29,603 bases of DNA from a virus, in the IMG/VR virus record IMGVR_UViG_3300042568_000509, positions 1 to 29,603 of that record. The stretch is one strand, 5' to 3'. The first letter of the stretch is position 1. Every line of letters begins with the position of its first letter. The notes beneath the pieces were generated by a model. The model was not told the DNA's origin, searched no databases, and saw only the letters and a program-made list of their open reading frames with translations. Positions 4,922-25,358 of the stretch are shown here, piece after piece. Position numbers and translations under genes: made by a program.

Positions 4922-5325
4922 GCGAAGAAGAGAAATATAAACAGCCTTACTGGTTCACGCACTCGAAGTTCTACAAGAAGCTTCGTAAGCATGAGCTATC
5001 TGACGAGAGCTGTTTTAAGCACATAGGCTCGATGCCAGAGCTAGAGCCTGATGAGCTATGGCCTGTTGACAAGCCGCTAACAGCCGAGGAGGTTGACCAG
5101 GCGCTAAGAATGAACAAGCTAAGGAGGCTGTATCTGGAGAACGAGAAGTGGGAGATCGTGCAGCTAGGCAACATACGTGAACCTGTAGATGACGAAGCTT
5201 ACTGGGAATTCACTACCTTTCTTGCTGAATGTTATGAGCTGCTAGGGGAGCAGTACGTAAATTACATCCTGGAGCCTCTAGGCTTCGTACAACATAGATA
5301 TGTCACGAACAAAAGAATCAGGTAA
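4918..5325 (+). CDS. Hypothetical protein upstream of terminase, 135 aa
   Basis: Acidic, helix-rich protein with segments such as SMPELEPDELWPVDKPLTAEE and a tryptophan/tyrosine-rich end. It overlaps the start of terL by 26 bases. Directly upstream of terL it is an alternative candidate for a small terminase-like or terminase-associated factor, but no DNA-binding motif is visible and the function stays open. Confidence 0.65.
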   Translation: MSEEEKYKQPYWFTHSKFYKKLRKHELSDESCFKHIGSMPELEPDELWPVDKPLTAEEVDQALRMNKLRRLYLENEKWEIVQLGNIREPVDDEAYWEFTTFLAECYELLGEQYVNYILEPLGFVQHRYVTNKRIR

Positions 5326-7216
5326 GATAAACATAATTGACTCAAAATCCAAGACCAGGCCGATTTATGAGTGGGAGGGCAAGCCTTCTATATTCAGGAC
5401 CAAGCGTGACGAGGAGGCTTGGTGGGAAAGAGAGAAGAAGCGTTGGCGCGAGGGCTACGGCGGTTTAACTGGCGCCCATTACTTTACCGTAACACAGGGT
5501 ACGTACAAGAGCGCCTTGAACGAGTATATAAGGCCTCAGGTCCGTGATGGGGATATGCTAGTGTTTGAGGAGTATGAGTCGTGCCGAAAGTCGATGGAGG
5601 ACCTGTTTATTGCTAAGCGACGTGGTTTTGCCTTGTCGTCCATATTCGGAGGAGCCATTCCGATGTATACAGCGATCACTAAGCCTGGTTCCACCAATCT
5701 AATTACCTCAGCAGATAAGACCAGGCTAGAGGAACTATACAAGGAGAAGCCGCTAGTGTTCTACTCCGAGATAGATAGTTCCATAAAGCCTAACACAATA
5801 TCACTACGCCAGAGCGGTTACCTTCACTTTGGTAAGAAGGAGTCTGACGGGAGTATATCTGGTCTGAACTCCAAGATAATGCTCATCCAGACCACGGAGT
5901 CTCCTAAGGACGCTACAGCGTTTGAGGCCTATCGTGCTACGACTATATTCATCGACGAGGTATTCCTTCACCCTAGGCCAGATGTTGTTGTGGCATCTAG
6001 TCAGGACTCGATCAAGAACGGCTTTGTTAAGATCAACCCGATCGTACTAGGCGGAAGTTGCGGTGTTGCATCCACAGAGGGCGCAACAAAGATGCAGCAA
6101 TATTGGATGGACGCAGACGCTAATATGGTTAGAACCGTGTTTATCCCAGGTTGGATGTGCATATCGGACGCGCCTGAGCTAGACGATGACGGAAACCAAA
6201 CAGGCCGTATGCTTAACTTCTGCCCTAACGGTCGTAGCGACCAGGCGGCTGCTACGGACTGGATACTCAAGATGCGAGGCAAGCTAGAGAAGGCAAAGAA
6301 CAAGGCCAAGTACTTGCAGTTTGTTAAGGCTTACCCTCTATCTATAGAGGAGGTTTTTGACGTGAACACACAGGGCGTGTTCACAGAGGATGTTATGGAC
6401 CACCTATCTAGCGCATCTATTAGGATACTAAAGGAGAACTACCCAGTAGGACGATATGACCTGTATGAGACACCTTCAGGTCTTATAACAGCGCGTGTGA
6501 ACGCTAACTCTGGCGACTTCTATATCCTAGACCATCCTAACCAGTCTTTGAAGTATGGGGCTGGTAATGACCCTATCCCGTTCGGACACAACGAAGACAT
6601 CACTTATAGACGTTCTGAGAACTCTATAGCCATCGGTTCGTTTAACGAGATGAAGCTAGTGGCCTACCATGCTGAAAGGACTCACGATGCCGATATCGCC
6701 GCGCAGAAGATGATCATGCTTGCTAGGTACTACAACGACGCAAAGATAATGATCGAGCGTAACCGAGGTGGTATGATCATAGACAAGATAAAGCAGCAGG
6801 GCTACACGCATCTACTAGCAAACCAGCCTAAGTGGATGGGAGCCTCTGGGTACGACAAGAGGGCTAGATACGGCTGGTATAAGGACAGCGTGTCTTCACA
6901 GGCCGCATACGCTGAGCTGATTACATACATCACTAAATACTCTGACCAGATATTCATAAAGCGCTTGGTCGATGAGCTTAAGCGGTTTATTGTTGATAAC
7001 ACCGACTTAGCCGATGCCTGGGTGTCGTTCCTGATTTACGCAAGGGAGTACCACGAGCGAATTGCGAAGAAGATTGAGACTAATTTTACTACTGTTGAAA
7101 CATCTGTTGTTACAATTAGGAACGGTCAGCGTCTAGTGGAACGAAAAACTGTGTATATTAAAGGCGAAAATGGAGAGCCTGTAAATCGACCAGATATATT
7201 TAATTATGGTAGGTGA
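5300..7216 (+). CDS. terL: Terminase large subunit
   Basis: A 638-residue DNA-packaging motor that would cut concatemers and pump DNA through the portal using ATP. The ATPase half carries an arginine-containing region AKRRGFALSS (105-114), which stands where a Walker A-type loop is expected but is atypical, and a clear Walker B with catalytic glutamate, TTIFIDE (D219, E220). The C-terminal half fits the RNase H-like nuclease: candidate metal ligands are D424 (GAGNDPIPFG), E486 (IMIERNRGG) and D572 (DLADAWVSF). The combination resembles terminases of crAss-like and marine Bacteroidota podoviruses. Its start overlaps the preceding gene by 26 bases. It lies upstream of a RuvC-like nuclease and the portal, the usual packaging cluster. 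Confidence 0.93.
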   Translation: MSRTKESGKINIIDSKSKTRPIYEWEGKPSIFRTKRDEEAWWEREKKRWREGYGGLTGAHYFTVTQGTYKSALNEYIRPQVRDGDMLVFEEYESCRKSMEDLFIAKRRGFALSSIFGGAIPMYTAITKPGSTNLITSADKTRLEELYKEKPLVFYSEIDSSIKPNTISLRQSGYLHFGKKESDGSISGLNSKIMLIQTTESPKDATAFEAYRATTIFIDEVFLHPRPDVVVASSQDSIKNGFVKINPIVLGGSCGVASTEGATKMQQYWMDADANMVRTVFIPGWMCISDAPELDDDGNQTGRMLNFCPNGRSDQAAATDWILKMRGKLEKAKNKAKYLQFVKAYPLSIEEVFDVNTQGVFTEDVMDHLSSASIRILKENYPVGRYDLYETPSGLITARVNANSGDFYILDHPNQSLKYGAGNDPIPFGHNEDITYRRSENSIAIGSFNEMKLVAYHAERTHDADIAAQKMIMLARYYNDAKIMIERNRGGMIIDKIKQQGYTHLLANQPKWMGASGYDKRARYGWYKDSVSSQAAYAELITYITKYSDQIFIKRLVDELKRFIVDNTDLADAWVSFLIYAREYHERIAKKIETNFTTVETSVVTIRNGQRLVERKTVYIKGENGEPVNRPDIFNYGR

Positions 7217-8661: not shown

Positions 8662-10926
8662 ATGGCAGATAAATTTAAGGACCAAAAGGAGAAGGCGGAC
8701 ATCATAAATTACCAGCCACCTAGACAAGACCTTACTGACCGACAAATCTTAGCGGAGTATGGTAGCATGGAGGCTTACGATCGCCAGATGGTTAGGTACT
8801 GCTGCACATTCTATAATAGACCAAACGAGTTTTACGATATATTCTACCAGCAAATACCGTCAGTACAGTCAACGCTAAAGAAGAGACCGTACTCGCCAGT
8901 TTTGCAGATCCTAGAGAACTACAGATATTACAACGGTGAGCAGTTTAACTTCAACTACGCGTTCTTGTCTAAGACTGTTGGAGGAGAAGAGGTACCAGCC
9001 CCGTTCATACCAGGACAGAAGATATATCAGGTTGTTGAGTTCCTAAAGGGTTCATATGCGTCCGTTATCCGTAATGCCAAGATACGTTGCAGGTCATTGT
9101 CAAAGGAGGCCGAGGGTAACCGATACAAGCGACTAACTCTAGCGATGCTAAAGTACGACTACAAAGACCTGTTCGACATGATGGAGGACGAGTCTGGTGT
9201 AAGCGTCAACCCTGTTCCAGAGGACCAGATGGAAAGCAAGGAGTCGATATACAAGTTCATCGAGGAGAACCCATTCGAGTCATCCGAGAAGCTAGGCAAC
9301 TCGCTAATAGAATTTATAGTAAGAGACAATGACTTCACAAACAAAGCAATTCGAAGCTACTTCGACACTAGGGTTGGAAGATATTCAGGCATGGTTTGTC
9401 GAATCCTTAATGGTAGGGTTGACATCCAGACACTACCTGGGTACCAGCTCATCATCGACAACCGAGTGGACGACGACCTCAACGGACAAGCTAGGTTCAG
9501 AGGAATCATCGAATACCTAACACCAGAGGAGATCTTTGAACGGTTCCCGTGTGAGAAGAGCGAGCGAGATGAGATAATCGCAAACGCAGGAGGCCTGAAC
9601 GAGTTCATGGCTCCTTTTAATAGTTTCTCAGACCCAATAAACTTCAGATGGTGGTCTACTACCAACAGACAGATTGCTGTTGTAACAATGTACTGGATGC
9701 AGCTTGTTGACACACGCTATGTGTACAAGAGAGACAGCAAGGGTCGTATTAAGTACCCATACGAGTACAAGATCCTTTCTGAGTCTGATCCACGCCCTGG
9801 AGAGTTCTTTGTTTCAGTGCCAAGACAAGCCACGCTTATTGGCAACAAGTACATAAAGGAGAACAAGTTCGTAGATGAGATCGTGTACCATCCGAACGAC
9901 AAGAAGCAGCCATTGCTTCCGTTGCATATCATCTGCCCTAACATGGTCAACGGTATATCCAAGAGCGTTGTGGATAGACTACGTGCGCACCAGGATATGC
10001 ACGATGCGATATCGTGGCGCATCCGAGATAAGATGGCAAAGGCGCACGGTAAGGTACCTATCCTTGATGGGTCACAGATACAGGGAGTAAGCGCACTTGA
10101 TATAGAGGAGGACTTCAAGAAGCTTGGATTCACAATACTAAACATGGCATCTACAGAGGCTGGAGACCCAACCGTTAGGCCTCTAGTTCAGTACATGGAC
10201 TTCACTATGGATGCTGACGTAAGGGCTTTGATAAGTCTGAAGCAGGAAGAGGAGCGCTTGATGAACGATATGTACAATACAAGTCCTATCGTTATGGGTA
10301 CTCAGCAGACTTATACTGGTTATGGAACACAGCAGTCTGCTATCTCACAGGCGACAATGAGTATCGTGAACGACACGCAGACTCACGTTCAGTTCCTAGC
10401 AAACGTGCTTCAGTACGCAGTAAACGCCGCTAAGAAGTTCTATACATCAAAGGAAGGAAAGCCATTTGCAAAGGACCTATTCAGCGAAAGGACTATATAT
10501 CTAATGGAGCAGAGCGAGGATCTGCGTTTCGAGGACCTATCTACTATCGTTGATATACTAGACAACATCGACCAGGTAGAGCGCAAGGAGTTGATGATGC
10601 TTGCACAGACAATCATTCCTACAGGAAACCTAGCAGCGCTAGAGTTGATGGTAGACCTCCAGTCTCAGCCAACCAAGACCTCGCTGAAGAACGCTATATC
10701 CTACATCATAAACAAACAGAAGCGCGAACAACAACAGCAGCAAGAACAGGCAATGATGCAACAAGCCATCATGCAGGATGCGGCTGGCCAGCAAGCGATG
10801 GAACGCGAGGCTATGATCCAGGACTCAAAGGGAGACCTAGAGGCGATGAAGGCAGACGCTATGCTAGAGAAGGAGGCTATGAAGATAGACGCAAAGCAGC
10901 CGCCTAGCCAGCAAGCGCCTAGATAA
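8662..10926 (+). CDS. Portal protein
   Basis: A 754-residue protein positioned after terL and before the scaffold and capsid genes. Its size and layout fit portals of crAss-like and similar podoviruses: an N-terminal region with tyrosine-rich helices (QILENYRYYNGEQFNF), a wing/stem region in the middle, and a long C-terminal helical tail (about 680-754) rich in glutamine, methionine and alanine, ending in PPSQQAPR. It would form the dodecameric ring at one capsid vertex through which DNA enters and leaves. No catalytic motifs are expected or seen. The glutamine-rich tail could be the barrel/crown domain or a scaffold contact. Assignment rests on size, order and overall character, not on a diagnostic motif. 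Confidence 0.82.
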   Translation: MADKFKDQKEKADIINYQPPRQDLTDRQILAEYGSMEAYDRQMVRYCCTFYNRPNEFYDIFYQQIPSVQSTLKKRPYSPVLQILENYRYYNGEQFNFNYAFLSKTVGGEEVPAPFIPGQKIYQVVEFLKGSYASVIRNAKIRCRSLSKEAEGNRYKRLTLAMLKYDYKDLFDMMEDESGVSVNPVPEDQMESKESIYKFIEENPFESSEKLGNSLIEFIVRDNDFTNKAIRSYFDTRVGRYSGMVCRILNGRVDIQTLPGYQLIIDNRVDDDLNGQARFRGIIEYLTPEEIFERFPCEKSERDEIIANAGGLNEFMAPFNSFSDPINFRWWSTTNRQIAVVTMYWMQLVDTRYVYKRDSKGRIKYPYEYKILSESDPRPGEFFVSVPRQATLIGNKYIKENKFVDEIVYHPNDKKQPLLPLHIICPNMVNGISKSVVDRLRAHQDMHDAISWRIRDKMAKAHGKVPILDGSQIQGVSALDIEEDFKKLGFTILNMASTEAGDPTVRPLVQYMDFTMDADVRALISLKQEEERLMNDMYNTSPIVMGTQQTYTGYGTQQSAISQATMSIVNDTQTHVQFLANVLQYAVNAAKKFYTSKEGKPFAKDLFSERTIYLMEQSEDLRFEDLSTIVDILDNIDQVERKELMMLAQTIIPTGNLAALELMVDLQSQPTKTSLKNAISYIINKQKREQQQQQEQAMMQQAIMQDAAGQQAMEREAMIQDSKGDLEAMKADAMLEKEAMKIDAKQPPSQQAPR

Positions 10927-10957: not shown

Positions 10958-10965
10958 TAAATTTG
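10958..10965 (+). promoter_or_regulatory. Bacteroidota-type promoter (TAAATTTG with upstream TTG)
   Basis: TAnnTTTG at 10958-10965 with a TTG at 10936-10938, 19 bases upstream, which is the expected -33/-7 arrangement of Bacteroidota promoters. ATG 10971 follows five bases after the box, so the transcript may be leaderless. It drives the scaffold-capsid unit. Confidence 0.7.
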
Positions 10966-10970
10966 CAAGC

Positions 10971-11987
10971 ATGAATAAAGTAGCAGATACTACCATTGAT
11001 CCTGAACTACAGGATGCACAGGTAGAAGAAACAGTAGATCAAACAGAGCAAGCGGCTCCTGATACCCAAAGTCAGGACGACGACATTCTGGATGACGAGT
11101 TAGATGGAGTGGTCGCCACCCCGTCATTTATTTCAACAAAAGCACAAACCCCCGCAACCCCTGCTGATACAGAGTCCGTAGATCGTTCTGAACTAGAGCG
11201 ACTACGTCAAGTAGAGCAGGACTATCTTGCACTAGCTTCAGACCCACTGGTGGAGGCTGCGTTTAACTTCCGTAGGGCTGGTAATAACGACATTATGCAG
11301 TTCGTATCAGAGTTGACAGGAGGCTACAAGGATGTAGCTAAGATGTCAATGGATGAGATGTACGAGCAGCATTACAGGTCATCTATTGCCAAGCGTTACG
11401 CTTTGTCTGAGGACGACATTGAGGAGGCTCTTGACGAGTTTAGATCTAAGTCCCCAGCACAAAAGGCGCAGATTATCGATCCGATCCGCGAGAAGCTAGA
11501 GCAAGATAGTAAGAACTCTATCAAGTCACTTAGCGAGAAGTTCTCTTCTAAAGCTAAGGATGACGAGAAGGCAATCCAAGAATTTCAGGAGAGGGAAAAG
11601 AAGGCCCTCAACTATTTAGATAATAAGCTGAACGAACTAACAGGAAAGACAATCCATCGGGTCCAAGTAACTCCAGAGATAGCCAAGGAAATCCGCGATC
11701 TTTCCACCCAGTTTGCGATCAGAAACCCAGAGACTTTGGAAGCTGATGTGGATGCGACCATATCCATGTGGATGTGGCTCCGACATGGCGACAAGATTCT
11801 CAAACAACACATCCGCTACGGTCAGAACCGTGGACTAGAAACCAGCGTAATCGGTAGGTCGAATGGAAACGCAAGCCCGATTAAGACGAATGGAGTTTCT
11901 CCGTCCTCAACAACTGACAAGTATGAGGAGGTGCTTAAAAAGTCTGGCGGGAAACTCCCGCGGACAGGAAGTCCAACCCCTAATTAA
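10971..11987 (+). CDS. Scaffold-like protein upstream of the capsid gene
   Basis: A 338-residue protein with a strongly acidic, low-complexity N-terminus (about 1-60; DDDILDDELDG), long charged helices in the centre (about 60-230; coiled-coil-like EKFSSKAKDDEKAIQEFQE) and a flexible, basic C-terminus ending in GGKLPRTGSPTPN. This composition, and a place directly before the major capsid gene in the same unit, are typical of scaffolding proteins that shape the procapsid and are then removed. No protease motif is seen. It could instead be a structural inner protein; the scaffold call is context-based. Confidence 0.65.
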   Translation: MNKVADTTIDPELQDAQVEETVDQTEQAAPDTQSQDDDILDDELDGVVATPSFISTKAQTPATPADTESVDRSELERLRQVEQDYLALASDPLVEAAFNFRRAGNNDIMQFVSELTGGYKDVAKMSMDEMYEQHYRSSIAKRYALSEDDIEEALDEFRSKSPAQKAQIIDPIREKLEQDSKNSIKSLSEKFSSKAKDDEKAIQEFQEREKKALNYLDNKLNELTGKTIHRVQVTPEIAKEIRDLSTQFAIRNPETLEADVDATISMWMWLRHGDKILKQHIRYGQNRGLETSVIGRSNGNASPIKTNGVSPSSTTDKYEEVLKKSGGKLPRTGSPTPN

Positions 11988-11998
11988 TCTTTTTAAAA

Positions 11999-13363
11999 AT
12001 GGCTAATCAAGTTTCAACCCTCAATATCGAGGACAATCTTTACAGCCGTGCGTTGAATGATCGTAATGACTTCAGCCGTGTATACGACCTTTCTGGTGGT
12101 TACTCTAAGCTTTTGACTATCGTTAACATCATCAACTCTGGCAATTCTAAGTCTATCGACGTAGACAAATACGAGAAATCGTTCATGACTAATGGATACG
12201 TTATCCAGCAAATAGCAGCAAATGCTTCAGCAGCTGGATCTGTTAACGTAACAGTTACCTTGGCCGACCCTACTTACGACAACTTCCGCATCAATGACCT
12301 CGTTATGAGCGAGTCTTTGACAATCCAAGGTATCGTAGTAGCTAAAGCTCCAGGTGTATTGACCATTGCTCCAGCTCCAGGCGGAACAACTCAAACAGAG
12401 CTTTTGGCTGAATTCCAAGCTAACAAATTCTTGAAGGCTTACGGCGATGCTCAACCTTTGCGTAACTCTGTTGGTCGTGAGTCACTTTATCAGTTCCCTG
12501 ATGTTGACTACAACTACACACAGGTTATCCGTGAAAGCACTTCAGTATCTCGCCGCGATAAAATCCGTTCACGCGTTATGTGGCAAGACGGAATGTGGTG
12601 GGAAGCACAGCAGCCTTTGGCTATCGAGATGATGCTTAAGCGCAAGGAGTTCATGGCTCTTTGGGGTCGTCGTGGTAAAGGCCTTGTTAATGGACAAGAA
12701 ACCAACACCAACGGTGGTATCGACTGGGCTATCAAAGAACGTCCTGTAGGTCGTGGTGTATACTACCCATTAGCAGGTCTTCCTTCTGAGGCTACATTCG
12801 AGAAGTTCCTTTCTGACGTTTATGACCGTAAGGCACAGCAAGGAGAGAAGTTCTTGATGTTAGGTCGCGGTATGTTGCACCACATCCAGAAGAACATGAC
12901 CCGTGATTTCATCCAGTATGCTGGTCAGCTTAACACATTCGGTGGTGCTGATGTATCTGGCTTGAACATCATGCAATATGCTGTTGCTGGTATGAAGTAC
13001 AACTTCATGGAAATGCCTATCCTTAACGACCCAGACTTCTTCCCAGAGGCTGCTGGCGTAACAGGTGCGCAGTTCCGTAAGCGTCAGTACGACTGCTACT
13101 GCTTAGATTTGGATGCTATCCCAGTAAAAGGTGGCGGAACTGCTCCTGCCATCGAGAAAATTCACTTCGGTGATTCTGAGTATTATGAAGCGTTTATCGC
13201 TGGTATGGACTCTGCTCCTTCTGGTGGTGTAACTGATGACGCTATCCGTGCAGCATCTGCTACTCGCGTTGTTACTGATGTGGATAACTCTACATACCAC
13301 GTAATGAGCGACTGCGGATACGACATGATCGGTAAATTCTCAGGCAAAATGGAGCTGATTTAA
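11999..13363 (+). CDS. Major capsid protein
   Basis: A 454-residue protein following portal and scaffold genes, the normal location for the HK97-fold shell protein. It has an insertion-rich N-terminal third with strand segments (SVNVTVTLADPTYDN), a tryptophan-rich helix MWQDGMWWEAQQPLAIEMM, and a C-terminal domain with FGDSEYYEAFIAGMD and a final GKFSGKMELI. Codon use stands out: every arginine codon I read through the gene is CGT or CGC, while neighbouring genes use AGA and AGG often, as expected of a very highly expressed protein. The fold is inferred, since no short motif proves it. ATG 11999 is preceded by an A/T-rich leader with no Shine-Dalgarno. Confidence 0.85.
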   Translation: MANQVSTLNIEDNLYSRALNDRNDFSRVYDLSGGYSKLLTIVNIINSGNSKSIDVDKYEKSFMTNGYVIQQIAANASAAGSVNVTVTLADPTYDNFRINDLVMSESLTIQGIVVAKAPGVLTIAPAPGGTTQTELLAEFQANKFLKAYGDAQPLRNSVGRESLYQFPDVDYNYTQVIRESTSVSRRDKIRSRVMWQDGMWWEAQQPLAIEMMLKRKEFMALWGRRGKGLVNGQETNTNGGIDWAIKERPVGRGVYYPLAGLPSEATFEKFLSDVYDRKAQQGEKFLMLGRGMLHHIQKNMTRDFIQYAGQLNTFGGADVSGLNIMQYAVAGMKYNFMEMPILNDPDFFPEAAGVTGAQFRKRQYDCYCLDLDAIPVKGGGTAPAIEKIHFGDSEYYEAFIAGMDSAPSGGVTDDAIRAASATRVVTDVDNSTYHVMSDCGYDMIGKFSGKMELI

Positions 13364-13394: not shown

Positions 13395-14165
13395 ATGAAT
13401 AGCACAATTCAGCCAAACTATTTAATCCTTAATACTGCATCTGGATCAGATGTTACAGTATCAGAAGGTAGTGTCGTATTTGGAGCAACAACAAATGTTT
13501 CTAACCCAATTGCCGTTAAAAACATAACTAAGATTACATCTCAGCTTTTCGCTGCTGGTACTAATCAAGTTGTTGAGGTTACTGTTCCTGCATCTGTTGC
13601 AGCTAACACTACATACTCATTTCAGATTTTATTGCAGAATTCACTAGGTGAATATTATGCTGTATATGTTGAGTATGTAACAGCCGCTTCAGGAGACACT
13701 ACAACAACTGTCCGAAACGGATTGAAGGCAGCATTAGATGCGTACATCACTACAGGTTATGCCACTGTAACTAGTGGAACATCTGGTGCAAACATCCTTA
13801 CAATTACAGGGACAGCAACAACTCGTTCATTTGTTACCGAAGCCATGTTAGGTGGACTTACAGTAGCTATTACAACAGCAGGAGTTGCTACGTTCGGAAC
13901 TGGAGCAAGCTTAGTAGCTCAGGGAATTGTTGGAATGGGAACCTCTCAGCCAGCAGCTGGTACAAACTATAGCTTAGCTTTAGTTGAGTATTCAGGACTT
14001 GTTACTGATGGTAATACTATCGAGAGAGAACAGCAAGGAAGTTTGTATATCTACTACATCTCTTCTGGTACTACATTCTTGACGGCAGGTATCCAAGATA
14101 AGCTTACAGCTCCTGCGGCCCTTGCAAATGTTCAAGCCATTGTTGCTGTGCCATCTCAGCCATAA
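13395..14165 (+). CDS. Probable capsid decoration or head-fibre protein
   Basis: A 256-residue protein rich in threonine, serine, alanine, glycine and valine and almost free of cysteine and tryptophan, with repeated beta-strand segments (VVEVTVPASVAANTTYSFQI; ANILTITGTATTRSF; GVATFGTGASLVAQ). This fits an all-beta surface protein. It lies directly after the capsid gene in the same unit and before a terminator, so it should be made in large amounts together with capsid. A decoration protein, head fibre base or tail-tube-type protein are all possible; I favour decoration or head fibre from context. Confidence 0.55.
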   Translation: MNSTIQPNYLILNTASGSDVTVSEGSVVFGATTNVSNPIAVKNITKITSQLFAAGTNQVVEVTVPASVAANTTYSFQILLQNSLGEYYAVYVEYVTAASGDTTTTVRNGLKAALDAYITTGYATVTSGTSGANILTITGTATTRSFVTEAMLGGLTVAITTAGVATFGTGASLVAQGIVGMGTSQPAAGTNYSLALVEYSGLVTDGNTIEREQQGSLYIYYISSGTTFLTAGIQDKLTAPAALANVQAIVAVPSQP

Positions 14166-14189
14166 CAACATACTTAACATTACTTACAG

Positions 14190-14220
14190 GAGGCCAGATT
14201 CGTCTGGCCTCTTTTGTTTT
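14190..14220 (+). terminator. Rho-independent terminator after the capsid unit
   Basis: Perfect nine-base-pair stem GAGGCCAGA (14190-14198) with TTCG loop and TCTGGCCTC (14203-14211), followed by TTTTGTTTTT. The stable UUCG-type tetraloop makes it a strong terminator. Confidence 0.9.
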
Positions 14221-14246: not shown

Positions 14247-14254
14247 TATCTTTG
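14247..14254 (+). promoter_or_regulatory. Bacteroidota-type -7 promoter box (TATCTTTG)
   Basis: Perfect TAnnTTTG just past the capsid-unit terminator and 17 bases before the ATG at 14272. No TTG at the ideal distance. Confidence 0.6.
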
Positions 14255-14271
14255 TATAAAATAAAATACAA

Positions 14272-15204
14272 ATGGCAAGAGAAACATTGGTGCTAACGCC
14301 ATACGGCGTTAACGGATCTGGGATAAGAATGTTCCAGTATTCTTACTACGACACACAGAAACGCAAGCAAATCAACTTCTTAGTAAACGGAACCATCTAC
14401 GAAGGTTCACTAGCAAACGGAAAAGATCCTGCGTCTCACAGAGAGGAGAAGAAAATATTCTTTGATGCAAAAGTGCTTCGCTACGTACTTGAGTACGACA
14501 CAGACGAGAAGTCATCATCAGAGTACCAGGAGGCTAAGTTTATCCTAAATCACCCGAACGTACAGAACGTATCAGGAGAGCAGAACTCAAACTATGCTGG
14601 AAAGACTATGTGGTTAGTAGAGCTTGTTCAGCAGAAGCTAGAGCATGGCTATACCCACATGATTGAGTTCTTGAAGGCGCAGAACGAATTCCTAGCAATG
14701 CCTCCAATGGAATGGCGTGAGTGCGCTTTCCACTTCGGACTAAACCCTACAAAGAAGGGGCCTCATGAACTAGCAACAGAGCTAGTAGGACACAAGTCTG
14801 GTATCATCATCTCATCTATTGAGAAATGCGAGGACTTTTTCAGATGGAAGTCTACATACCATAGCGATGATCCAAAGTTTGTTTCAGAAAAGGCAACGGC
14901 ACTAGGTATCATCAGAAAGGACAACGAGGTGTATAAGTTTGATGGTATCCCAATGGGTCGTACAATCGATGAGGTTTCAGCAGCGTTGTCTGTAGACCGA
15001 ACAACACTACGTCAGGTTGTGAAAGACATCGAGACTAGCGACTCAGACCTAGCGGAATATATCGAGAAGCTAAACCGTCACTTCCCAGGATGGGATAGCG
15101 AGGATCGGAAGGAAGGTCCGCCATCAATCGAGCCTAGCGACAAGCCAGTAGAAAATAAGGTCGCAGCAGCAAAAGCGGCGCAAAAGCAAACAATAAAAGC
15201 CTAA
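14272..15204 (+). CDS. Insulated 310-aa protein of unknown function with helix-turn-helix-like segment
   Basis: The N-terminal part (1-75) is beta-like and aromatic (TPYGVNGSGIRMFQYSYYD; KKIFFDAKVLRYVLEYD), the middle is helical (110-200), and the segment TIDEVSAALSVDRTTLRQVV (231-250) looks like a helix-turn-helix. The end is alanine/lysine-rich and flexible (AAAKAAQKQTIKA). The gene has its own promoter box and its own terminator, so it is made apart from both the capsid unit and the basic-protein unit. It may be a virion protein or a late regulator. I do not recognise a family. Confidence 0.75.
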   Translation: MARETLVLTPYGVNGSGIRMFQYSYYDTQKRKQINFLVNGTIYEGSLANGKDPASHREEKKIFFDAKVLRYVLEYDTDEKSSSEYQEAKFILNHPNVQNVSGEQNSNYAGKTMWLVELVQQKLEHGYTHMIEFLKAQNEFLAMPPMEWRECAFHFGLNPTKKGPHELATELVGHKSGIIISSIEKCEDFFRWKSTYHSDDPKFVSEKATALGIIRKDNEVYKFDGIPMGRTIDEVSAALSVDRTTLRQVVKDIETSDSDLAEYIEKLNRHFPGWDSEDRKEGPPSIEPSDKPVENKVAAAKAAQKQTIKA

Positions 15205-15216
15205 CCAGCAAATCAT

Positions 15217-15246
15217 AAAAGCCATTCATTTTCGAATGGCTTTTTT
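15217..15246 (+). terminator. Rho-independent terminator after the 310-aa gene
   Basis: Perfect 11-base-pair stem AAAAGCCATTC (15217-15227) and GAATGGCTTTT (15234-15244) with a six-base loop, continuing into a T run to 15246. Its T run leads almost directly into the next promoter box. Confidence 0.88.
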
Positions 15247-15248
15247 AT

Positions 15249-15256
15249 TATATTTG
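15249..15256 (+). promoter_or_regulatory. Bacteroidota-type -7 promoter box (TATATTTG)
   Basis: Perfect TAnnTTTG followed by C, starting three bases after the terminator T run and 19 bases before ATG 15276. It is the only promoter I can see for the basic small-protein array that runs to 17951. Confidence 0.65.
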
Positions 15257-15275: not shown

Positions 15276-15386
15276 ATGAACAAGCCATCAAAGTCAGCTA
15301 CAATCAAAAGCGTAAGCGCAAAATCAGTACTTGCATTCGCTAAGAAAGGAGCAAGCAAGCCTAAGGGCGGTAAGAAATCCTGCTAA
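15276..15386 (+). CDS. 36-aa lysine/serine-rich microprotein
   Basis: A short frame, MNKPSKSATIKSVSAKSVLA continuing to KPKGGKKSC, lies at the normal distance from a promoter box and its stop overlaps the next start (TAATG, 15384-15388). Those two facts, and a composition like that of its neighbours, support a real gene although it is too short for most gene finders. It has ten lysines and no acidic residue, so it would bind DNA or another anionic surface. The single cysteine is the last residue. Confidence 0.65.
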   Translation: MNKPSKSATIKSVSAKSVLAFAKKGASKPKGGKKSC

Positions 15387-15679
15387 TGGAAAAGAGCGGC
15401 AGATTAAAAGCAGCTCTAAAAAGAGCTGGTGTATCGGCTGTGAACAAGCCGAAGCGGACGCCTAGTCATCCGAAGAAGTCGCACGTTGTTGTGGCTAAGG
15501 AGGGTGACAAGATAAAGGTCGTGCGTTTTGGACAACAGGGCGTAAAGGGTGCTGGTAAGAATCCTAAGTCTGCGAAGGACAAGGCTCGTAAGAAGAGTTA
15601 CTACGCTAGGCATAATGCTCAGGATCCCAATCCTAGCAAGCTTTCGCCTCGATACTGGTCCCACAAAGTTAAATGGTAG
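15386..15679 (+). CDS. Small basic protein, DUF6321-like
   Basis: A 97-residue protein with KAALKRAGVSAVNKPKRTPS, HVVVAKEGDKIKVVRFGQQG and a C-terminus YYARHNAQDP...SPRYWSHKVKW. From memory this is the pattern of the DUF6321 family of small proteins found in phages and some large viruses (unverified here); function unknown. It is strongly basic. It starts within the stop of the 36-residue gene, so it is translationally coupled, and belongs to the array of basic proteins behind the capsid unit. A virion-associated or DNA-binding role is inferred. Confidence 0.8.
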   Translation: MEKSGRLKAALKRAGVSAVNKPKRTPSHPKKSHVVVAKEGDKIKVVRFGQQGVKGAGKNPKSAKDKARKKSYYARHNAQDPNPSKLSPRYWSHKVKW

Positions 15680-18023: not shown

Positions 18024-18031
18024 TACATTTG
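18024..18031 (+). promoter_or_regulatory. Bacteroidota-type promoter (TACATTTG with upstream TTG)
   Basis: TAnnTTTG with a TTG at 18002-18004, exactly 19 bases upstream, inside the preceding terminator's T run. ATG 18036 follows four bases after the box, so the message may start at or very near the start codon. Drives the ring protein and tail-hub unit. Confidence 0.7.
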
Positions 18032-18035
18032 TACT

Positions 18036-18890
18036 ATGACAGGCGTAGAGATAAACCAGATATATTCTCAACAGATAGGCCAGACGTACTCTGGGATAGA
18101 GGATATTCCCAAGAAGAACAGACGCTTCAAGAAGGCTCTAATCAACGCCATCGAGGAGAAGTATCGAAACCTAAACGAGCAACGCGAATTCGATGAGATA
18201 AGGAGCCTGATATCTAGTCAGGAGTTAACTCCTACTAATAACTACATCGATTTTGTTATTAACAATACTGCTCATGTATTAGCCGTAAAGGCTAAGTACA
18301 AGAGAACAATTCCAGGATTGACTATAAAGGACATCACAAACACTAGTCCTATAGTTCTAGACCTGTTCACGCCAAACAACATCAGGACTGGCGATACTAT
18401 CCTGCTAGAGAACGTGCAGGGTAACACAGCCGCAAACGGCGAGTTCACTGCAATCGTAAAGAATAGATTTAAGATTGAGCTTTATACTGCTAACGGTCCT
18501 ACAACAGGTAATGGTAAGTTCGTTCAATCACCACTAACAAAGATCTCAAGGGTGTTCTATAACTATTGTCAGTTCCTAAAGAGCGATGAGAAGATCTCGT
18601 CATTCAAGGGAGCAACAGAGGACTATCCGCTATACGAGATACGAGATGGAGGTATATACTTCTATCCATATGCACAGGGTAGTATAGCGCCGTCAAAAAT
18701 CACTATAGACCAGATAAATACAGTTACACTAGAGTTTGATCTAGCAGATAATTCAATCAACTATTCAGCAACATATCCTGATAAGTTCATTTACCACGTA
18801 ATTGATCTAGCGGCCAAGGACTTCGATATCACATTCAGAGACTATCAGAACTCACAGGCAACGGATCAGCAAATATTACTTAACCCATGA
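18036..18890 (+). CDS. Connector/ring protein with an inserted beta domain
   Basis: A 284-residue protein, first gene of the tail-connector unit. The N-terminal helices (about 20-65) and the segment SRVFYNYCQFLKSDEKISSF fit a portal-proximal ring or head-tail adaptor. Between them lies a compact beta domain (about 97-163) with RTGDTILLENVQGN, TAANGEFTAIVKNRF and GPTTGNGKF. The pattern GD-x-V/I-x-N-V-x-GN-x-AANG is known to me as a small recurring domain of phage tail and connector proteins. The same type of domain appears in the giant gene four positions downstream. By gene order this corresponds to a ring protein of crAss-like phages. The stop overlaps the next start (ATGA). Confidence 0.65.
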   Translation: MTGVEINQIYSQQIGQTYSGIEDIPKKNRRFKKALINAIEEKYRNLNEQREFDEIRSLISSQELTPTNNYIDFVINNTAHVLAVKAKYKRTIPGLTIKDITNTSPIVLDLFTPNNIRTGDTILLENVQGNTAANGEFTAIVKNRFKIELYTANGPTTGNGKFVQSPLTKISRVFYNYCQFLKSDEKISSFKGATEDYPLYEIRDGGIYFYPYAQGSIAPSKITIDQINTVTLEFDLADNSINYSATYPDKFIYHVIDLAAKDFDITFRDYQNSQATDQQILLNP

Positions 18891-19558
18891 CACGCAAACA
18901 ATACGTAGATATATTGCAAGCAGAGACGGCTGGTGGTAACATCACCGATGAGGTTAGAATGGACTACAGGCTCATGGGGGCTATGCTAGACATTGCTAGA
19001 GAGAAGGCTATAGTTACATACGTAACGCAGAAGAAGGTGGTGCCAGCGATGCTGTATCAGACAACATATCCTCAGTTCAGAAGCGAGGTGCAGGAAGATA
19101 ACTGCAATACGCTATTCCCATTCCCATCTAAGACCATCCAGACAGACGCTGCATTCTCAGGTATCGCGTACATCGGTGGCGAGGACGGGAAGACGCCATA
19201 TATAAGGTCAGCAAACCAGGCCGACTACGCCAACCAGATGCAGCACTTCTTGATGTATGCTATATCGTCAAAGAACCCTGTGTCTATTTATATTCCAGAG
19301 TTCAACATGGTTAAGATAAACAAGACCCCAGGCCAGCTTCCAAAGAGAATCATGGTCACAGGTGTGTTTACTAACCCTACGCTAATACCAGAATACAACG
19401 AGCAGTTTGATGACTATCCTATCACAATGGAGATCTTCACAATGGCGAAGGACTACCTGTTACAGATCGACATCAGACAGGTATTATCAACAGTACCAGA
19501 CGACATAAGCAACTCATCAGACGACGCATCAGTAGCGGCACAAGCTCCTAGGAAATGA
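18887..19558 (+). CDS. Ring/connector protein, 223 aa
   Basis: Start RKQYVDILQAETAGGNITDE and MDYRLMGAMLDIAREKAIVT resemble the N-terminal helices of ring proteins of crAss-like phages. The rest is mixed beta, rich in aromatic and proline residues (YIPEFNMVKINKTPG), with a flexible acidic C-terminus (DDISNSSDDASVAAQAP). It would stack under the portal to form the connector. ATGA overlaps with both neighbours indicate near-stoichiometric coupled translation. The assignment rests on order, size and loose resemblance. Confidence 0.6.
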   Translation: MTRKQYVDILQAETAGGNITDEVRMDYRLMGAMLDIAREKAIVTYVTQKKVVPAMLYQTTYPQFRSEVQEDNCNTLFPFPSKTIQTDAAFSGIAYIGGEDGKTPYIRSANQADYANQMQHFLMYAISSKNPVSIYIPEFNMVKINKTPGQLPKRIMVTGVFTNPTLIPEYNEQFDDYPITMEIFTMAKDYLLQIDIRQVLSTVPDDISNSSDDASVAAQAPRK

Positions 19559-20241
19559 AAAGAAGTATAGCCACACCAATAGCACTTAAGTCTGTAGTAG
19601 CCTCGGCTAAGCAGCAGTTAAGAATCGGGCAAACGTCCGAGCATGATGCTATGTTCTATAGACTAGCAGACGAGGCGCTAGGTCAGATAGGATCGCTAGA
19701 TACGTTCGTTAAGCAGACCGAGTGCTTCGATATCGAAGACTATAAGTTCGAGCTTCCTAATGGCTTTGTTCGTCCGATAGCATTAAGGCTTGAGGGCGAC
19801 ACCACGATGAAGGCCAACAGCAATGTGACATACTTCAACCAGGAGTTTATCCGTCAGTGCCAGTGCGACGACCCAGAGGTAAGGAATTATCCAGACCTAC
19901 AGTCCACGGGTGAGATAATCAATGGTTACTGGATGTTCAACACGGATGTGAAGGCTACTAAGGCTGTGATGACCTACCTATCTAGGAACCTAGACGAGGA
20001 CTGCATGATGATCATGTACGAGAACCAGGAACGTGCCGTAAGGTCTTATATTAGCTGGAACTTCACAAGGATGTACTTTGAGATGTTCCCCCCAAATATA
20101 TCGGAGTCATACAGACAAGAATGGATGGCACAGAGAAGATATTTGATAGGTGAATCGTTCCAGCGTGAATACTTGAACAACAGAACGCAGATAGGGTCAA
20201 TCTATCGCGCACTTATCAATAATCAAAACTTCTCTATATAA
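19555..20241 (+). CDS. Ring/connector protein, 228 aa (P22 gp4-like candidate)
   Basis: Helical N-terminus (SVVASAKQQLRIGQTSEHDA, FYRLADEALGQIG), a central beta segment (YKFELPNGFVRPIALRLEGD), then a helical C-terminus with QEWMAQRRYLIGESFQREYL. This two-helix, beta, helix plan resembles adaptor proteins of the P22 gp4 type that sit on the portal. It is coupled to the preceding gene by ATGA and its stop shares a base with the next start (TAATG at 20239-20243). Confidence 0.6.
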   Translation: MKRSIATPIALKSVVASAKQQLRIGQTSEHDAMFYRLADEALGQIGSLDTFVKQTECFDIEDYKFELPNGFVRPIALRLEGDTTMKANSNVTYFNQEFIRQCQCDDPEVRNYPDLQSTGEIINGYWMFNTDVKATKAVMTYLSRNLDEDCMMIMYENQERAVRSYISWNFTRMYFEMFPPNISESYRQEWMAQRRYLIGESFQREYLNNRTQIGSIYRALINNQNFSI

Positions 20242-23200
20242 TGCCATCAGTACAGTTACGAAGCTTTGGGGGACTAAATACAGACAGCCACGTTCAGGAT
20301 ATTCGCAATGGTGACTACACCGATGCGAAGAATATAGAACACGTTAGCGCTGAGAAGGGTGAGTCATTAGCCATCACGCCAAGGACTGGTAACGAGTTTG
20401 CTTTTGACTTAGGTTCTGTTACTGCACAGGGCAAGAGATATCTATTTAAGTTTTCTCTTGAGTCTCCAGATGGTATTTTTTATATCAGAATAAAGAACTC
20501 TAATGGCGTAACTGATTTTATACCAACATTGGTTGGATTAGTTTACATCCCTTCTAGAAATGATTTTGAATCTGCGATTGTATCGGCATGGAACGGCTTT
20601 AGAGTAATAGACGCAACTTCTGATCCTATTATAGCTCCATCTATTGATTCAACAAAAGAGCTTGCTTATATAGTAGAGCCAGATCCGAATTCACCTGTTC
20701 AAGCGAACTATGAATTAACTGTAGTAGAAAACTACTTTATTGTAAATGAAATTATTGAACTAGAAGGTGGAGGTATATCTGGATCTATTGACATAGAATG
20801 CATCACAGAGTGCATACCGCTATCAAGAGAGGGTCAATTAGAGGTTATAGGGTCTAAGGATATACTCGGTGATTTATTTATTATATCGTCAAATAAGAGA
20901 GAGGACCCAGTAGAGGTAAATCTTTTTTTTACTGTTGTAGATATTATAGCTAACGGAGTAGCTGTAAATATAACTTTTAATAGTGAATATCAACAGTATT
21001 TATACCCTGGTCAAGAGATATACATATCAGGCGTAGAAGGCCTTACATCACTTAATGGGTTATACACAATTTCTTCACTTGTTAACCCTTTAACTGTACA
21101 AATACTAAACTTCATAGAGGTACAGAACATAGACAATGGCAACCCATCTCAGCCTTATGTTCAAGGAACAGGAAAGGCTACACTTAATCCATTTGGCATA
21201 GGTGAGATAGGTGTTGCGACAAAGAACGAGTCTAGAAACGAGTGGACATACACCAGGTTACTTAGATCAAGGGAGCTTAACTTCTGGATTAAGCATCAGT
21301 TTGATATGGAGGGCGAGGTTTCTTTTAACAGGAAGTCTTTGTATTTCACAGACGACTTTAACCCGCCTAAGCTTTTCTATTACAGAAACTCAGCCCCGTA
21401 TGTACAGGATGGCGCTATAAAGGGGATATACCCTGATTATGGAATCTTCAACTACGACAGTATATCTGACCAGACAAACCATATACTAGGCCAGCCAAGC
21501 ATAGATATTGATCTAGTAGAGCAGCAACAAGGGGGCGGTGGTTTATATGTTGGGAATCATAGGTATTTTGTTAGAGGCGTTCTTGGAGATGGAAGTTATA
21601 CAGACTGGTCTTTGCCATCTGGTGCTGTACCTGTTTATTTTGAGAGATTTAATGGTGATCCAAGAAAGATTATAGGTAATATATCAGGGACAGCAACATA
21701 TAAGCAGAATGTTCTTAGGATATCAAATCTAAATTCAAGTCTTTATAAATTCATTGAAGTTGCTTGTATTCTATATATTGACCTAGCTGTTGATACTACA
21801 ACATACGGAGTGTTCAATAGATTTGCCGTATCAGAAGATGTAGATTTTCTAATTATAACTCATACAGGAAGAGAGGAGGGCGTAGATCTGATCCCAGAAG
21901 AATTAAGCATTCAGACGGAAGTAGTATCTAAGGCTAAGAATAATGCTATAGTAGATAATAGATATATTCTATCAAATCTTACTATTCCGAACGACGATTT
22001 CTCTGATATACTAAATGCATTTACATATAGTATAAAAAAGAAAGATATATCAAGGGTCAATACATATCCTAACTTTTCTGTTGGCGGGCATCAGGATCCA
22101 ATGAATGTATTTTATTATACAGGCTATATGCTCAATGAGACATATAGAATTGGATGTAGATTCAAGTACAAGAGTGGCTATGCAAGTCCTGTCTATAAAA
22201 TATTTGATGTAACAATAGATACAGAGCAAACATCGTCAGACAATAAAAGAACAGCAGGGCTTGATAATTATGATTTAGTTAGCTTGAGCACAACTAGCCA
22301 AGGAAGACAAAATTACGTGCCTTATATAGAGATATCATCACCAGATCTTTCAAGTTTCCTAATTGATGGAATACAAGCATCTCAAGTTATAGATAGAATA
22401 GAGTATTTTAGGGCTGAAGTAAAGAATCCAACAATTGTAGGATATGGTTTCGCTGTAAATCACGTAAAGGCGATGACATTGGGATCCAAGTGGCCTCCAT
22501 TATTTATTTCATCAACATATAATCAGGTTAGATCTACTGGGTGGTACATAACATCAGCTCAACCAACATCAGCGCAGGATTCATCTAGTCCAATTAGCAA
22601 TGGGCCAATGGTTACTTATGAATTCCCTTTTATAGTGTATAGTCAAGCAAGTCCTGGATCTGGAACTGCAACAGGTGGATTTCCAGGAGGAGTGTCATCA
22701 GAGTACCTATTGCCTTCAAGTGTTCAATATTACGATCCAAATTATACAATGAATTCTGGACCATTATCTGGAAAAGAAGGCGGGTATATTTGGAAGGATG
22801 ATATAGTTAGTATATATTTAATAGATTCTATAATTACTGAAGGTAAGATAGATGTTATTCCTAACGATATAATTATAAATATAGGACAGGCAGATGGTAA
22901 TATAAGATATACATCATATTTAAATCCTCCATACAGTTATTATATAGAGTTATTTAATCAATATAATTCGACTCAAAAACAGGAGGTTCCAATAGAAAAC
23001 TCTGTTTATATTAATTCCAACGAAATTTCTTCATTCGAGGGATCATGGGTCGCTAAATATGCAGGAGTTGATCAAAATACAAATGGGCAAAGAGCTATAT
23101 ATTTTATACCGAATATTGAAGCAGCTATAGACTATTCAAGTTTAGATACTTTTGATTTAACGCAGAATAATATAAGAATTGAATTTGCTGTTTATAACCA

Positions 23201-25346
23201 AAGTGATAATGTTCAGTTATTAATAGCTAGTTGGGAGAATACAGCAAACTTAGATACATTAGAATGGATTACTGCATTTAATAATAGCGCTTCATCTAAT
23301 GGTACTGGAATAATAGCACAGGGGACAGGAACTAGTGGACAAGTAAATATATTAGCACCTGTAAATGATCCATATTGGCTAAGCCCTGCTACAAATACTC
23401 AATTACGGGCATATGGTGTACCAAGTGGCGCTGCTCTTTTTGAGCAATTTGCAGATTTTCAAGGAGCCTCAGTTCAGACAACAACAACAAATATTTTTAA
23501 CTCTAGCTATGTTGCAAAGCTTGAGACTCCTTTAAGTCCATTTTTATCAACAGCATTAGATAAAGGATTTAGGATAATACAAGTAAAAAGATTACTTTCT
23601 CCTGGTACATTTCAGTATTCTCCAGAGGGTCTTGATTCATATGTATACACTGGCTCTTTTCAGAAACCAGGCCAATCAGTTGTTATCGATATATTTGGCG
23701 GTGACACATACACATCTCAAGTATACTATAGAACATTTGTAAATGTAAAAAGCTTACCTAACCCTCTTACAGGCGAATCTGCTCAAGCAATAAATTTTAC
23801 TGGTCAAACAAAGTCTAATTCTTATTTAATATATAAAGACACGGATAATCCAGACCACAAAGTATATCCATTCTCATACACCGATGGGACAAATGAATCT
23901 GGGTTTAATGATTGGCTATCAAAGCAAACACTAGATACATTCTTCTATAATTCTGGGTATGATTTAAGAAATTTATTTTATGGCTTTAGAGCTGGTCCTC
24001 CTATAGATACATTAGAAAAGCTTCCAACCAGAATTATATATTCTGACCTGAAGCCACAGAACGCAAGGAGTGACTTCTACAGAAGGTTTGGCATTCTATC
24101 ATACACAGACCTTGATGCTTCGTTCGGTGAGATCATCGACATGAAGAATATCAACGGTGAGCTGTTCACATTACAGCCAAACAAGTACCAGCGTCAGTTC
24201 TTCAATACAAGGGGTACACTTCAGCTTAGCGACACTAGCCAGATTGTGCTAGGAGACGCTAGTGTGCTTTCTCGCCCTGGTGTTACTATTACATCATACG
24301 GATGTTCAAATAAATGGTCAGTATTCCTTGGTAGATCCCAAGGTGGTGATGATGTGGTATATTGGTACGATAGAATAAGAAAGAAATTCATGAGGTTTGG
24401 CGCAGACGGTGCTGTACCTATTTCAGACAGGGCATTTGTTAGAACTGCTGCGTTAAATGACACAAAATGGGTTTTAGACTTCGATAGCCCTGCTTTGAAT
24501 TATGGTATGCATGGAGTTTGGAACCAGCGATTAGGAGAGGCAATATGGACTATTAGGGCGCATAGGAAGCCAGACCTTGCATGGGTAGGTGTGGAAAGAG
24601 AGCTTCAGCCAGAAGCTGGAGAAAACCCAATCATATACAAAGTAAATGAAATAGTATACCTTGAGGACGAAACTAACTTCTTAAATTTTGAGCAGACTAT
24701 TGTTTTATACGTAGTTATTCAGGAGCATTCATCCGAGCTTAATATAAAACCAGGTGTTACTCAAGGATGGGAAGAGTACTTCTTTAGGCCATCGATTGAT
24801 GATAAGGACTACTATAATATAAACACTATATCATACTCGGAGTTCAAGAATAGATTCAGTCAGTTCCAAGAGACGTACCATCCGCGTATCTATCTTCAAT
24901 GGAATGACACGTTCCTTTCGCCTAGACCAAAGGACCCAGAGTCAAATGTGTACGAGCATAACTCTGGCGACATCATGCGCTGGTATGCTCATAACGGAGA
25001 GGTACAGGAAGAAGAAGGATATATTGAGGTAGTGTTTAACATTGATCCTAATATCACCAAGCGTTACGTGGCTCTTATCTGCAATAGCGAGTTCACCCCG
25101 TATAGACTAGAGCTAGAGACAAGGACTCAGACTACATTTATAAATGGTCCTGATTTTGAGCAGCAGCTTGAACAGTTCTTTGCACCTATTCCAAACGTGG
25201 CTGTAAATGGACAGACTGATCTAGACAAAGACTTCATGTACGGCCAGTGGGTAAAGATTAGGTTCTACTACGAGCCTGGTGAATTCCAGAGGTTTACAAA
25301 TATTGTATTGAAGTTTAATCCAATGGTTAGGCTTTGGAACACATAA
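20241..25346 (+). CDS. Giant tail-hub ('muzzle/stabilization') protein, 1701 aa
   Basis: By size, position and start this matches the large hub protein below the ring proteins in crAss-like phages. The N-terminus reads VQLRSFGGLNTDSHVQDIRN then GDYTDAKNIEH, a GGLN...DY.DA.NI signature that I associate with phage stabilization proteins. A beta domain near residues 225-315 (YPGQEIYISGVEGLTSLNGLY) resembles the insert in the 18036 gene. The body is beta-rich with many aspartate, tyrosine and serine residues. The middle, about 22.0-24.0 kb, is much more AT-rich than the two ends, suggesting a variable or transferred section. It probably makes the tail-tip assembly that attaches and opens for DNA delivery. 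Start is secure (TAATG with the previous stop). Confidence 0.8.
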   Translation: MPSVQLRSFGGLNTDSHVQDIRNGDYTDAKNIEHVSAEKGESLAITPRTGNEFAFDLGSVTAQGKRYLFKFSLESPDGIFYIRIKNSNGVTDFIPTLVGLVYIPSRNDFESAIVSAWNGFRVIDATSDPIIAPSIDSTKELAYIVEPDPNSPVQANYELTVVENYFIVNEIIELEGGGISGSIDIECITECIPLSREGQLEVIGSKDILGDLFIISSNKREDPVEVNLFFTVVDIIANGVAVNITFNSEYQQYLYPGQEIYISGVEGLTSLNGLYTISSLVNPLTVQILNFIEVQNIDNGNPSQPYVQGTGKATLNPFGIGEIGVATKNESRNEWTYTRLLRSRELNFWIKHQFDMEGEVSFNRKSLYFTDDFNPPKLFYYRNSAPYVQDGAIKGIYPDYGIFNYDSISDQTNHILGQPSIDIDLVEQQQGGGGLYVGNHRYFVRGVLGDGSYTDWSLPSGAVPVYFERFNGDPRKIIGNISGTATYKQNVLRISNLNSSLYKFIEVACILYIDLAVDTTTYGVFNRFAVSEDVDFLIITHTGREEGVDLIPEELSIQTEVVSKAKNNAIVDNRYILSNLTIPNDDFSDILNAFTYSIKKKDISRVNTYPNFSVGGHQDPMNVFYYTGYMLNETYRIGCRFKYKSGYASPVYKIFDVTIDTEQTSSDNKRTAGLDNYDLVSLSTTSQGRQNYVPYIEISSPDLSSFLIDGIQASQVIDRIEYFRAEVKNPTIVGYGFAVNHVKAMTLGSKWPPLFISSTYNQVRSTGWYITSAQPTSAQDSSSPISNGPMVTYEFPFIVYSQASPGSGTATGGFPGGVSSEYLLPSSVQYYDPNYTMNSGPLSGKEGGYIWKDDIVSIYLIDSIITEGKIDVIPNDIIINIGQADGNIRYTSYLNPPYSYYIELFNQYNSTQKQEVPIENSVYINSNEISSFEGSWVAKYAGVDQNTNGQRAIYFIPNIEAAIDYSSLDTFDLTQNNIRIEFAVYNQSDNVQLLIASWENTANLDTLEWITAFNNSASSNGTGIIAQGTGTSGQVNILAPVNDPYWLSPATNTQLRAYGVPSGAALFEQFADFQGASVQTTTTNIFNSSYVAKLETPLSPFLSTALDKGFRIIQVKRLLSPGTFQYSPEGLDSYVYTGSFQKPGQSVVIDIFGGDTYTSQVYYRTFVNVKSLPNPLTGESAQAINFTGQTKSNSYLIYKDTDNPDHKVYPFSYTDGTNESGFNDWLSKQTLDTFFYNSGYDLRNLFYGFRAGPPIDTLEKLPTRIIYSDLKPQNARSDFYRRFGILSYTDLDASFGEIIDMKNINGELFTLQPNKYQRQFFNTRGTLQLSDTSQIVLGDASVLSRPGVTITSYGCSNKWSVFLGRSQGGDDVVYWYDRIRKKFMRFGADGAVPISDRAFVRTAALNDTKWVLDFDSPALNYGMHGVWNQRLGEAIWTIRAHRKPDLAWVGVERELQPEAGENPIIYKVNEIVYLEDETNFLNFEQTIVLYVVIQEHSSELNIKPGVTQGWEEYFFRPSIDDKDYYNINTISYSEFKNRFSQFQETYHPRIYLQWNDTFLSPRPKDPESNVYEHNSGDIMRWYAHNGEVQEEEGYIEVVFNIDPNITKRYVALICNSEFTPYRLELETRTQTTFINGPDFEQQLEQFFAPIPNVAVNGQTDLDKDFMYGQWVKIRFYYEPGEFQRFTNIVLKFNPMVRLWNT

Positions 25347-25350
25347 TTTT

Positions 25351-25358
25351 TATCTTTG
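25351..25358 (+). promoter_or_regulatory. Bacteroidota-type -7 promoter box (TATCTTTG)
   Basis: Perfect TAnnTTTG five bases after the tail-hub stop and 21 bases before ATG 25380. A TTTG occurs 14 bases upstream, closer than ideal. No terminator separates the units, so read-through is likely. Confidence 0.6.

Follow-up and report, generated by a model that had tools for sequence, protein, structure and literature searches.

A single-gene unit between the capsid and tail ring genes

The DNA that we analyzed, referred to here as the window, is a virus record of 29,603 nt (IMGVR_UViG_3300042568_000509, positions 1 to 29,603). Within it, a gene for a 310-aa protein follows the capsid gene, with one auxiliary gene intervening, and precedes the tail ring genes, all on the same strand (the capsid assignment itself is weak; Table 1). 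This locus had been read from sequence as a single-gene unit with its own promoter and terminators, and our analysis bore this out, since the ORF, a hairpin on either side, and a TAnnTTTG element were all found, an arrangement that is kept in 3/3 members known of its immediate family. The upstream hairpin has an MFE of -18.4 kcal/mol (z -6.2) and the downstream hairpin one of -14.1 kcal/mol (z -6.0), and neither was matched by any of 200 shuffles. We take TAnnTTTG to be the Bacteroidota -7 promoter element; no sigma-70-like promoter was found upstream of the gene. An own promoter together with flanking terminators would uncouple the level of the 310-aa protein from that of the capsid protein.

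Table 1. Features of the window and their counterparts in two related contigs
Feature	Position	Strand	Details
310-aa protein gene	14272..15204	+	ATG start; probably a distant ortholog of the Crassvirales gene 75 (crAss001 gp33)
Intrinsic terminator hairpin, end of capsid/auxiliary unit	14188..14213	+	11 pairs, T-rich tail
Intrinsic terminator hairpin, end of single-gene unit	15217..15244	+	11 pairs, T-rich tail
Bacteroidota -7 promoter element TATCTTTG of single-gene unit	14247..14254	+	TAnnTTTG, begins 25 nt 5' of ATG
Promoter element TATATTTG of next unit	15249..15256	+	TAnnTTTG before next ORF
TAnnTTTG-bearing gaps	14247, 15249, 8634 (before portal), 10958, 18024, 25351, and one before 3913	+	7 gaps
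Portal protein	8662..10926	+	phrog_6547 E 1.9e-21; phi38:1 portal family hhalign P 6.6e-6
Scaffold-slot protein (phi38:1 gp092 / crAss001 gp31 equivalent by position)	10971..11987	+	top match gp092 family P 0.0043, weak
Major capsid protein	11999..13363	+	top match phi38:1 capsid family P 0.019, weak
Probable capsid auxiliary protein, crAss001 gp36-like	13395..14165	+	hhalign P 3.3e-5, prob 72%
Tail ring protein, R2/gp40-like	18887..19558	+	top match P 0.018, weak
Tail ring protein, R1/gp43-like	19555..20241	+	P 3e-5; phi38:1 gp096 family E 0.00098
Muzzle/stabilization protein, crAss001 gp44-like	20241..25346	+	P 5.9e-11; tblastn to crAss-like stabilization proteins
RecA-C-terminal-domain-like region (inferred), residues 198-276, incl. 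suspected helix-turn-helix 231-250	14863..15099	+	fold predicted only for gp33 relative
Upstream hairpin counterparts	L001 2305-2331; L002 7913-7940		stem sequence changed
Promoter element counterparts	L001 2364; L002 7974		same type
Downstream hairpin counterparts	L001 3349-3365; L002 8966-8987		

Across the whole window and on both strands, TAnnTTTG occurs 28 times against 23.1 expected, which is no enrichment, since 21 of 100 shuffles held at least 28 sites. When we counted the intergenic gaps of at least 25 nt between 35 ORFs that we had picked, 7/11 carried the motif (0.54 expected, and 7 reached in none of 2000 shuffles), with 1/11 on the minus strand. The element at 10958 precedes the scaffold/capsid/auxiliary unit, the one at 18024 precedes ORF 18036, which is followed by the rings and muzzle, and the one at 25351 precedes a unit at 25380; the elements in the seven gaps mark out several transcription units. 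Since TAnnTTTG also stands before other units, the single-gene unit of the 310-aa protein is one of several and no exception. From the promoter type, the host of this uncultured phage probably belongs to Bacteroidota.

Relatives of the 310-aa protein in IMG/VR were limited to two contigs, L001 and L002, and scans of viral contigs with the capsid and portal proteins of the window recovered the same two only. Both keep the succession of hairpin, TAnnTTTG, gene, hairpin, and TAnnTTTG, while the stem sequences differ. No significant homolog of the protein was found in PDB, PHROGs, Pfam, cultured phages, or GTDB genome contigs. The large terminase (5300-7216, +) was itself only partially recognized, by phrog_6681 over residues 19-361, and a terminase scan of viral contigs, the sister contigs L001 and L002 included, returned no relative. 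The AlphaFold model of the 310-aa protein, built on a three-sequence alignment, reached a pLDDT of 36 and is too weak to use, and a Foldseek search with it gave nothing usable; the beta-rich N-terminus proposed from sequence agrees with this weak model only.

Profile-profile alignment (hhalign) of 19 window proteins against 26 families drawn from phi38:1-like and crAss-like phages gave 494 comparisons. The resulting order runs from portal, scaffold slot, capsid protein, and gp36-like auxiliary through the 310-aa gene to the tail rings and muzzle, with clear matches for the portal, the gp36-like auxiliary, ring R1, and the muzzle. The scaffold slot, capsid, and ring R2 matched weakly, yet they are in order and each match was the best of the 26 families; the capsid ORF also scored against Pfam SU10_MCP (E 4.5e-4), with 20.3 bits falling under the cut-off of 24.1. 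Two matches were off-order, namely ORF 18036 to the capsid family (P 0.00096, followed by gp095 at 0.0011) and the small ORF 16524 to the gp31 family (P 0.0049). With 494 comparisons, chance alone would yield values near 0.002, so the weak matches carry weight only when position is considered as well. As for the order known from Crassvirales, one ring and the muzzle match crAss001, the portal matches the phi38:1 family, and the capsid does so weakly. Judged by gene order and profile comparisons, some of them weak, the window probably lies near the crAss-like phages. The ORF, hairpins, promoter motif, and part of this gene order are shown by the analysis.

Two further genes resemble known phage genes. 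A Prim-Pol/helicase fusion (131-2296, +) is 29% identical to its phi38:1 counterpart over 88% of its length. A 97-aa protein (15386-15679, +; phrog_7595) is 77% identical to a protein of Roseobacter phage CRP-345 and 74% to one of HMO-2011, and it matches 75 phage records named mostly as Vibrio, Roseobacter, and Synechococcus phages, so that strong similarity across host phyla adjoins otherwise unrecognizable genes.

The slot behind the capsid and the gp33 family

In phi38:1, Maribacter phage Panino, ctfjg026, and two elemo phages, a "hypothetical protein" of 249-266 aa (gp094) is encoded behind the capsid gene. Its family, which includes Cellulophaga phage phi38:1, Panino, and the Flavobacterium elemo phages, occurs in at least 594 confirmed stretches in IMG/VR (among 600 stretches; 80 were kept). 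The same slot, after the capsid gene and before a ring gene, is taken by gp33 in crAss001 and gp101 in phi14:2, and the gp33 and gp094 families are homologous (hhalign 2.3e-9). By gene order, we equate the gp33 slot with gene 75 in the study of Yutin et al. (PMC7886860), which describes genes 74 and 75 as uncharacterized and, with IHF, as a genomic signature of crAss-like phages. Mapped by order and tandem duplication, gene 74 appears to correspond to gp34/gp35, tail ring proteins that were solved in 2023; in that case, gene 75 would be the one of the pair still lacking a function.

We consider it likely that the 310-aa protein is a very divergent member of this gene 75/gp33 family, on the combined grounds of synteny, helix order, and weak statistics. 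Residues 198-276 align with the gp33 C-terminal profile at hhalign P 0.0011 and with the RecA C-terminal profile at P 0.0055 over 36 gapless columns, and the gp33 C-terminal HMM stretch covers residues 205-232 only. Among 48 window ORFs, the 310-aa protein scores best against the gp33 C-terminal profile, and its score was reached by 23/10,000 of its own shuffles (46 and 39/10,000 for the two relatives); other runs gave 5/2000 and, in a control run, 5/1000. When 19 window proteins were put through the shuffle test, the 310-aa protein was again the best, two longer proteins reached p 0.008 and 0.010, and six had no score. These tests were run after the alignment had been seen, on a 79-residue piece chosen from it, and so they lend support rather than proof. 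The helix order looks the same in the weak model of the 310-aa protein (helices 123-141, 145-154, 164-172, 180-198, 201-210, 232-241, 244-255, and 257-270) and in the model of phi14:2 gp101 (helices 148-172, 176-187, 197-210, 212-219, and 224-236, a hairpin at 239-248, and helices 263-271 and 273-293).

At full length, the gp33 HMM ranks the 310-aa protein and its relatives 14th to 23rd, under several of 500 shuffles, and hhalign gave P of 0.026, 0.36, and 0.072 (0.1 in another run). In the slot matrix, the best match was a one-sequence family (P 0.041), with gp33 (0.044) next. Since no significant full-length similarity to gp33 was found, we regard the protein as a probable remote ortholog and not as a sequence-level member. 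Direct homology to phi38:1 gp094, our first guess by eye, was unsupported by profiles (no profile match to the gp094 family, and no listing of the 310-aa protein by the gp094 HMM at E 10) and returned only via gp33.

The protein could also be an unrelated, lineage-specific late protein that merely occupies the gene 75 slot. The full-length searches without a significant family match and the off-order slot-matrix matches of similar strength both speak for this, but the weak agreement with gp33 and with RecA C-terminal domains is collinear, and the helix order, slot, size, and a hairpin behind the capsid region (present before crAss001 gp33 as well) coincide, so that we think such an origin improbable.

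A proposed RecA-type fold in place of the suspected helix-turn-helix

The fold was computed for the gp33 relative, phi14:2 gp101, whose confident model (IMG/VR copy L107, 68 sequences) has a pLDDT of 92.3 and a pTM of 0.77. In a Foldseek search of the PDB, the first 21 matches were all RecA at E 0.09 and weaker, with no match at E 0.001. VIA-align superposed gp101 residues ~224-292 on RecA ~270-330 over 60-64 residues, at Z 9.8-10.5 and rmsd 1.2-2.9, and the best 50 rows listed were all RecA; by the tool's own note, unrelated proteins often reach a best Z of 7-8, and helical models up to 14. Since VIA-align covered mainly residues 186-293 of the model, it says nothing on the N-terminal fold. 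At the profile level, gp33 matches the RecA C-terminal domain with P 8.6e-5 (prob 60%), and Pfam RecA_C was found in 1/68 family members (E 0.023). A weaker test with the RecA HMM gave E < 0.01 in 12/63 gp33 proteins against 23/1,260 shuffles (719 listed). The C-terminal domain of gp094 displayed no RecA likeness (hhalign P 0.17; 1/65 with E < 0.01). The gp101 model ends in a RecA C-terminal-domain fold.

GenBank labels crAss001_33 a "double-stranded DNA binding domain containing protein." The RecA link may already stand behind this phrase; we guess that its source was PDB entry 1aa3, the RecA C-terminal fragment. A literature search on double-stranded DNA binding domain, crAss, and capsid found nothing, and the matches listed for RecA together with crAss were unrelated, judged by title. 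In RecA, according to PMC4666392, the C-terminal domain is a gateway for dsDNA in which K286 and K302 are well conserved.

That the 310-aa protein shares this fold and binds DNA is what we infer through the gp33 family. The RecA HMM does not find the protein directly (706/2000 shuffles score as high), residues 198-276 retrieved no RecA from the PDB within E 10, and profile A8 against the PDB returned no RecA. The sequence-only reading had placed DNA binding in a helix-turn-helix at residues 231-250; binding to DNA stays plausible, by analogy through a RecA C-terminal-domain-like fold, while a classical helix-turn-helix is unsupported. The isolated 79-residue piece matched HTH_3 (E 0.046), HTH_17 (0.083), and HTH_28 (0.23) at 14.2, 13.6, and 12.0 bits against Pfam cut-offs of 23, 27, and 25. 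None of the three was found in the two relatives, which are 66-68% identical in this piece. By the model helix order shared with gp101, the suspected helix-turn-helix coincides with the helices that follow the RecA-type hairpin.

These results bear on whether the protein is a late transcription regulator, whose helix-turn-helix would bind the promoter DNA of the phage units and tune late expression. An insulated single-gene unit and the weak matches around residues ~228-271 would suit such a role, but those matches lie under the cut-offs and are missing from both relatives, the equivalent region of the gp33 relative has a predicted RecA-type fold, and the counterpart in crass phages abuts a ring gene. 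The portal gene also has a promoter element, so being a separate unit does not single out regulators. We therefore judge a regulator to be unlikely. The unit itself is real and conserved, and its product is probably a remote member of a hallmark family that is still uncharacterized; a RecA-C-terminal-domain-like reading replaces that of a helix-turn-helix.

Candidate role and comparison with known systems

The gene lies within the structural block, and the protein might accordingly be carried in the virion, as a minor component or an internal head protein accompanying the packaged DNA; a DNA-binding virion protein had also been proposed from sequence. A possible dsDNA-binding domain would fit this, and RefSeq names the phi14:2 counterpart "Putative structural protein." On the other hand, phi14:2 gp100 and gp102 are annotated from MS/MS, while gp101 between them has no MS/MS note, although low-copy proteins can escape MS; gp33 is nowhere mentioned in the main text of PMC10172136, which describes the structure of the crAss001 virion. 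In two elemo phages, phi38:1, and ctfjg026, the counterpart is "hypothetical" between "structural" neighbors, labels that rest, at least in phi38:1, on similarity. A place in the virion is therefore not favored, and we consider it quite unlikely.

The most likely reading makes the 310-aa protein a late, dsDNA-binding factor for assembly or packaging that does not remain in the virion. Its gene directly follows the capsid genes, and its C-terminal ~70 residues would probably form a RecA-C-terminal-domain-like module that holds dsDNA, while the beta-rich and helical N-terminal part would bind a partner in head assembly. The protein would be active inside the cell while heads are assembled and DNA is packaged, where it might bring DNA to the procapsid or retain it there, and would be absent from the finished virion. 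For a gp33 member, a role in head assembly or packaging without staying in the virion is a tentative proposal that we put somewhat short of an even chance, and the whole explanation, combining gp33 membership, a RecA-like DNA module, and a non-virion assembly or packaging role, comes very close to even.

The predicted RecA-type fold, probable virion absence, and insulation from the capsid gene make it a testable hypothesis that gene 75 is a DNA-handling assembly factor, and crAss-like phages dominate many human gut viromes. In its broadest form, the proposal would be that crAss-like and related Bacteroidota podoviruses universally keep an uncharacterized head-region protein family, which carries a dsDNA-gateway domain captured from RecA but no recombinase and serves as a non-virion, DNA-holding assembly or packaging factor, and that this family reaches far beyond Crassvirales to where only gene order and fold reveal it; we hold this wider claim to be doubtful.

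Compared with RecA, whose C-terminal fold is that predicted for the last ~70 residues of the gp33 relative, the 310-aa protein carries the same C-terminal pattern (G-I-I...Y-x-F-x-G...G) but showed no ATPase core, as Pfam RecA gave no match (E 9.3e-143 for the E. coli RecA control). RecA E285/K286 align with R215/K216 in our numbering, whereas K302, one of the two well-conserved DNA-contact lysines, corresponds to I232.

Compared with crAss001 gp33 and phi14:2 gp101, the protein shares the capsid-ring slot, a similar length (330 and 294 aa vs 310 here), and a like C-terminal sequence pattern and helix order. However, gp33 in crass phages adjoins the next gene (median 2 nt) and is not a single-gene unit, whereas the 310-aa gene has its own promoter and downstream terminator; it is also separated from the capsid gene by the gp36-like gene, unlike gp33. 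A strong terminator-like hairpin precedes gp33 in crAss001, as it does the 310-aa gene; in the gap between the crAss001 capsid gene and gp33 (L099, 14821-14891), it has 13 pairs, with -21 kcal/mol for the folded stretch. Across gp33 genes, an upstream hairpin was found in 22/54 and TAnnTTTG in 0/54. The gp094 family occupies the same slot, with a hairpin before the gene in 47/60 and after it in 37/59 (counted over those of the 65 members that have a measurable neighbor); the hairpin counts in both families are without shuffle control. TAnnTTTG stands upstream of 2/60 gp094 genes, which is chance (4 in shuffles), so an own promoter is not general in that family and was seen only in the lineage of the 310-aa protein (3/3). 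What is kept more widely seems to be the putative stop signal in front of the gene.
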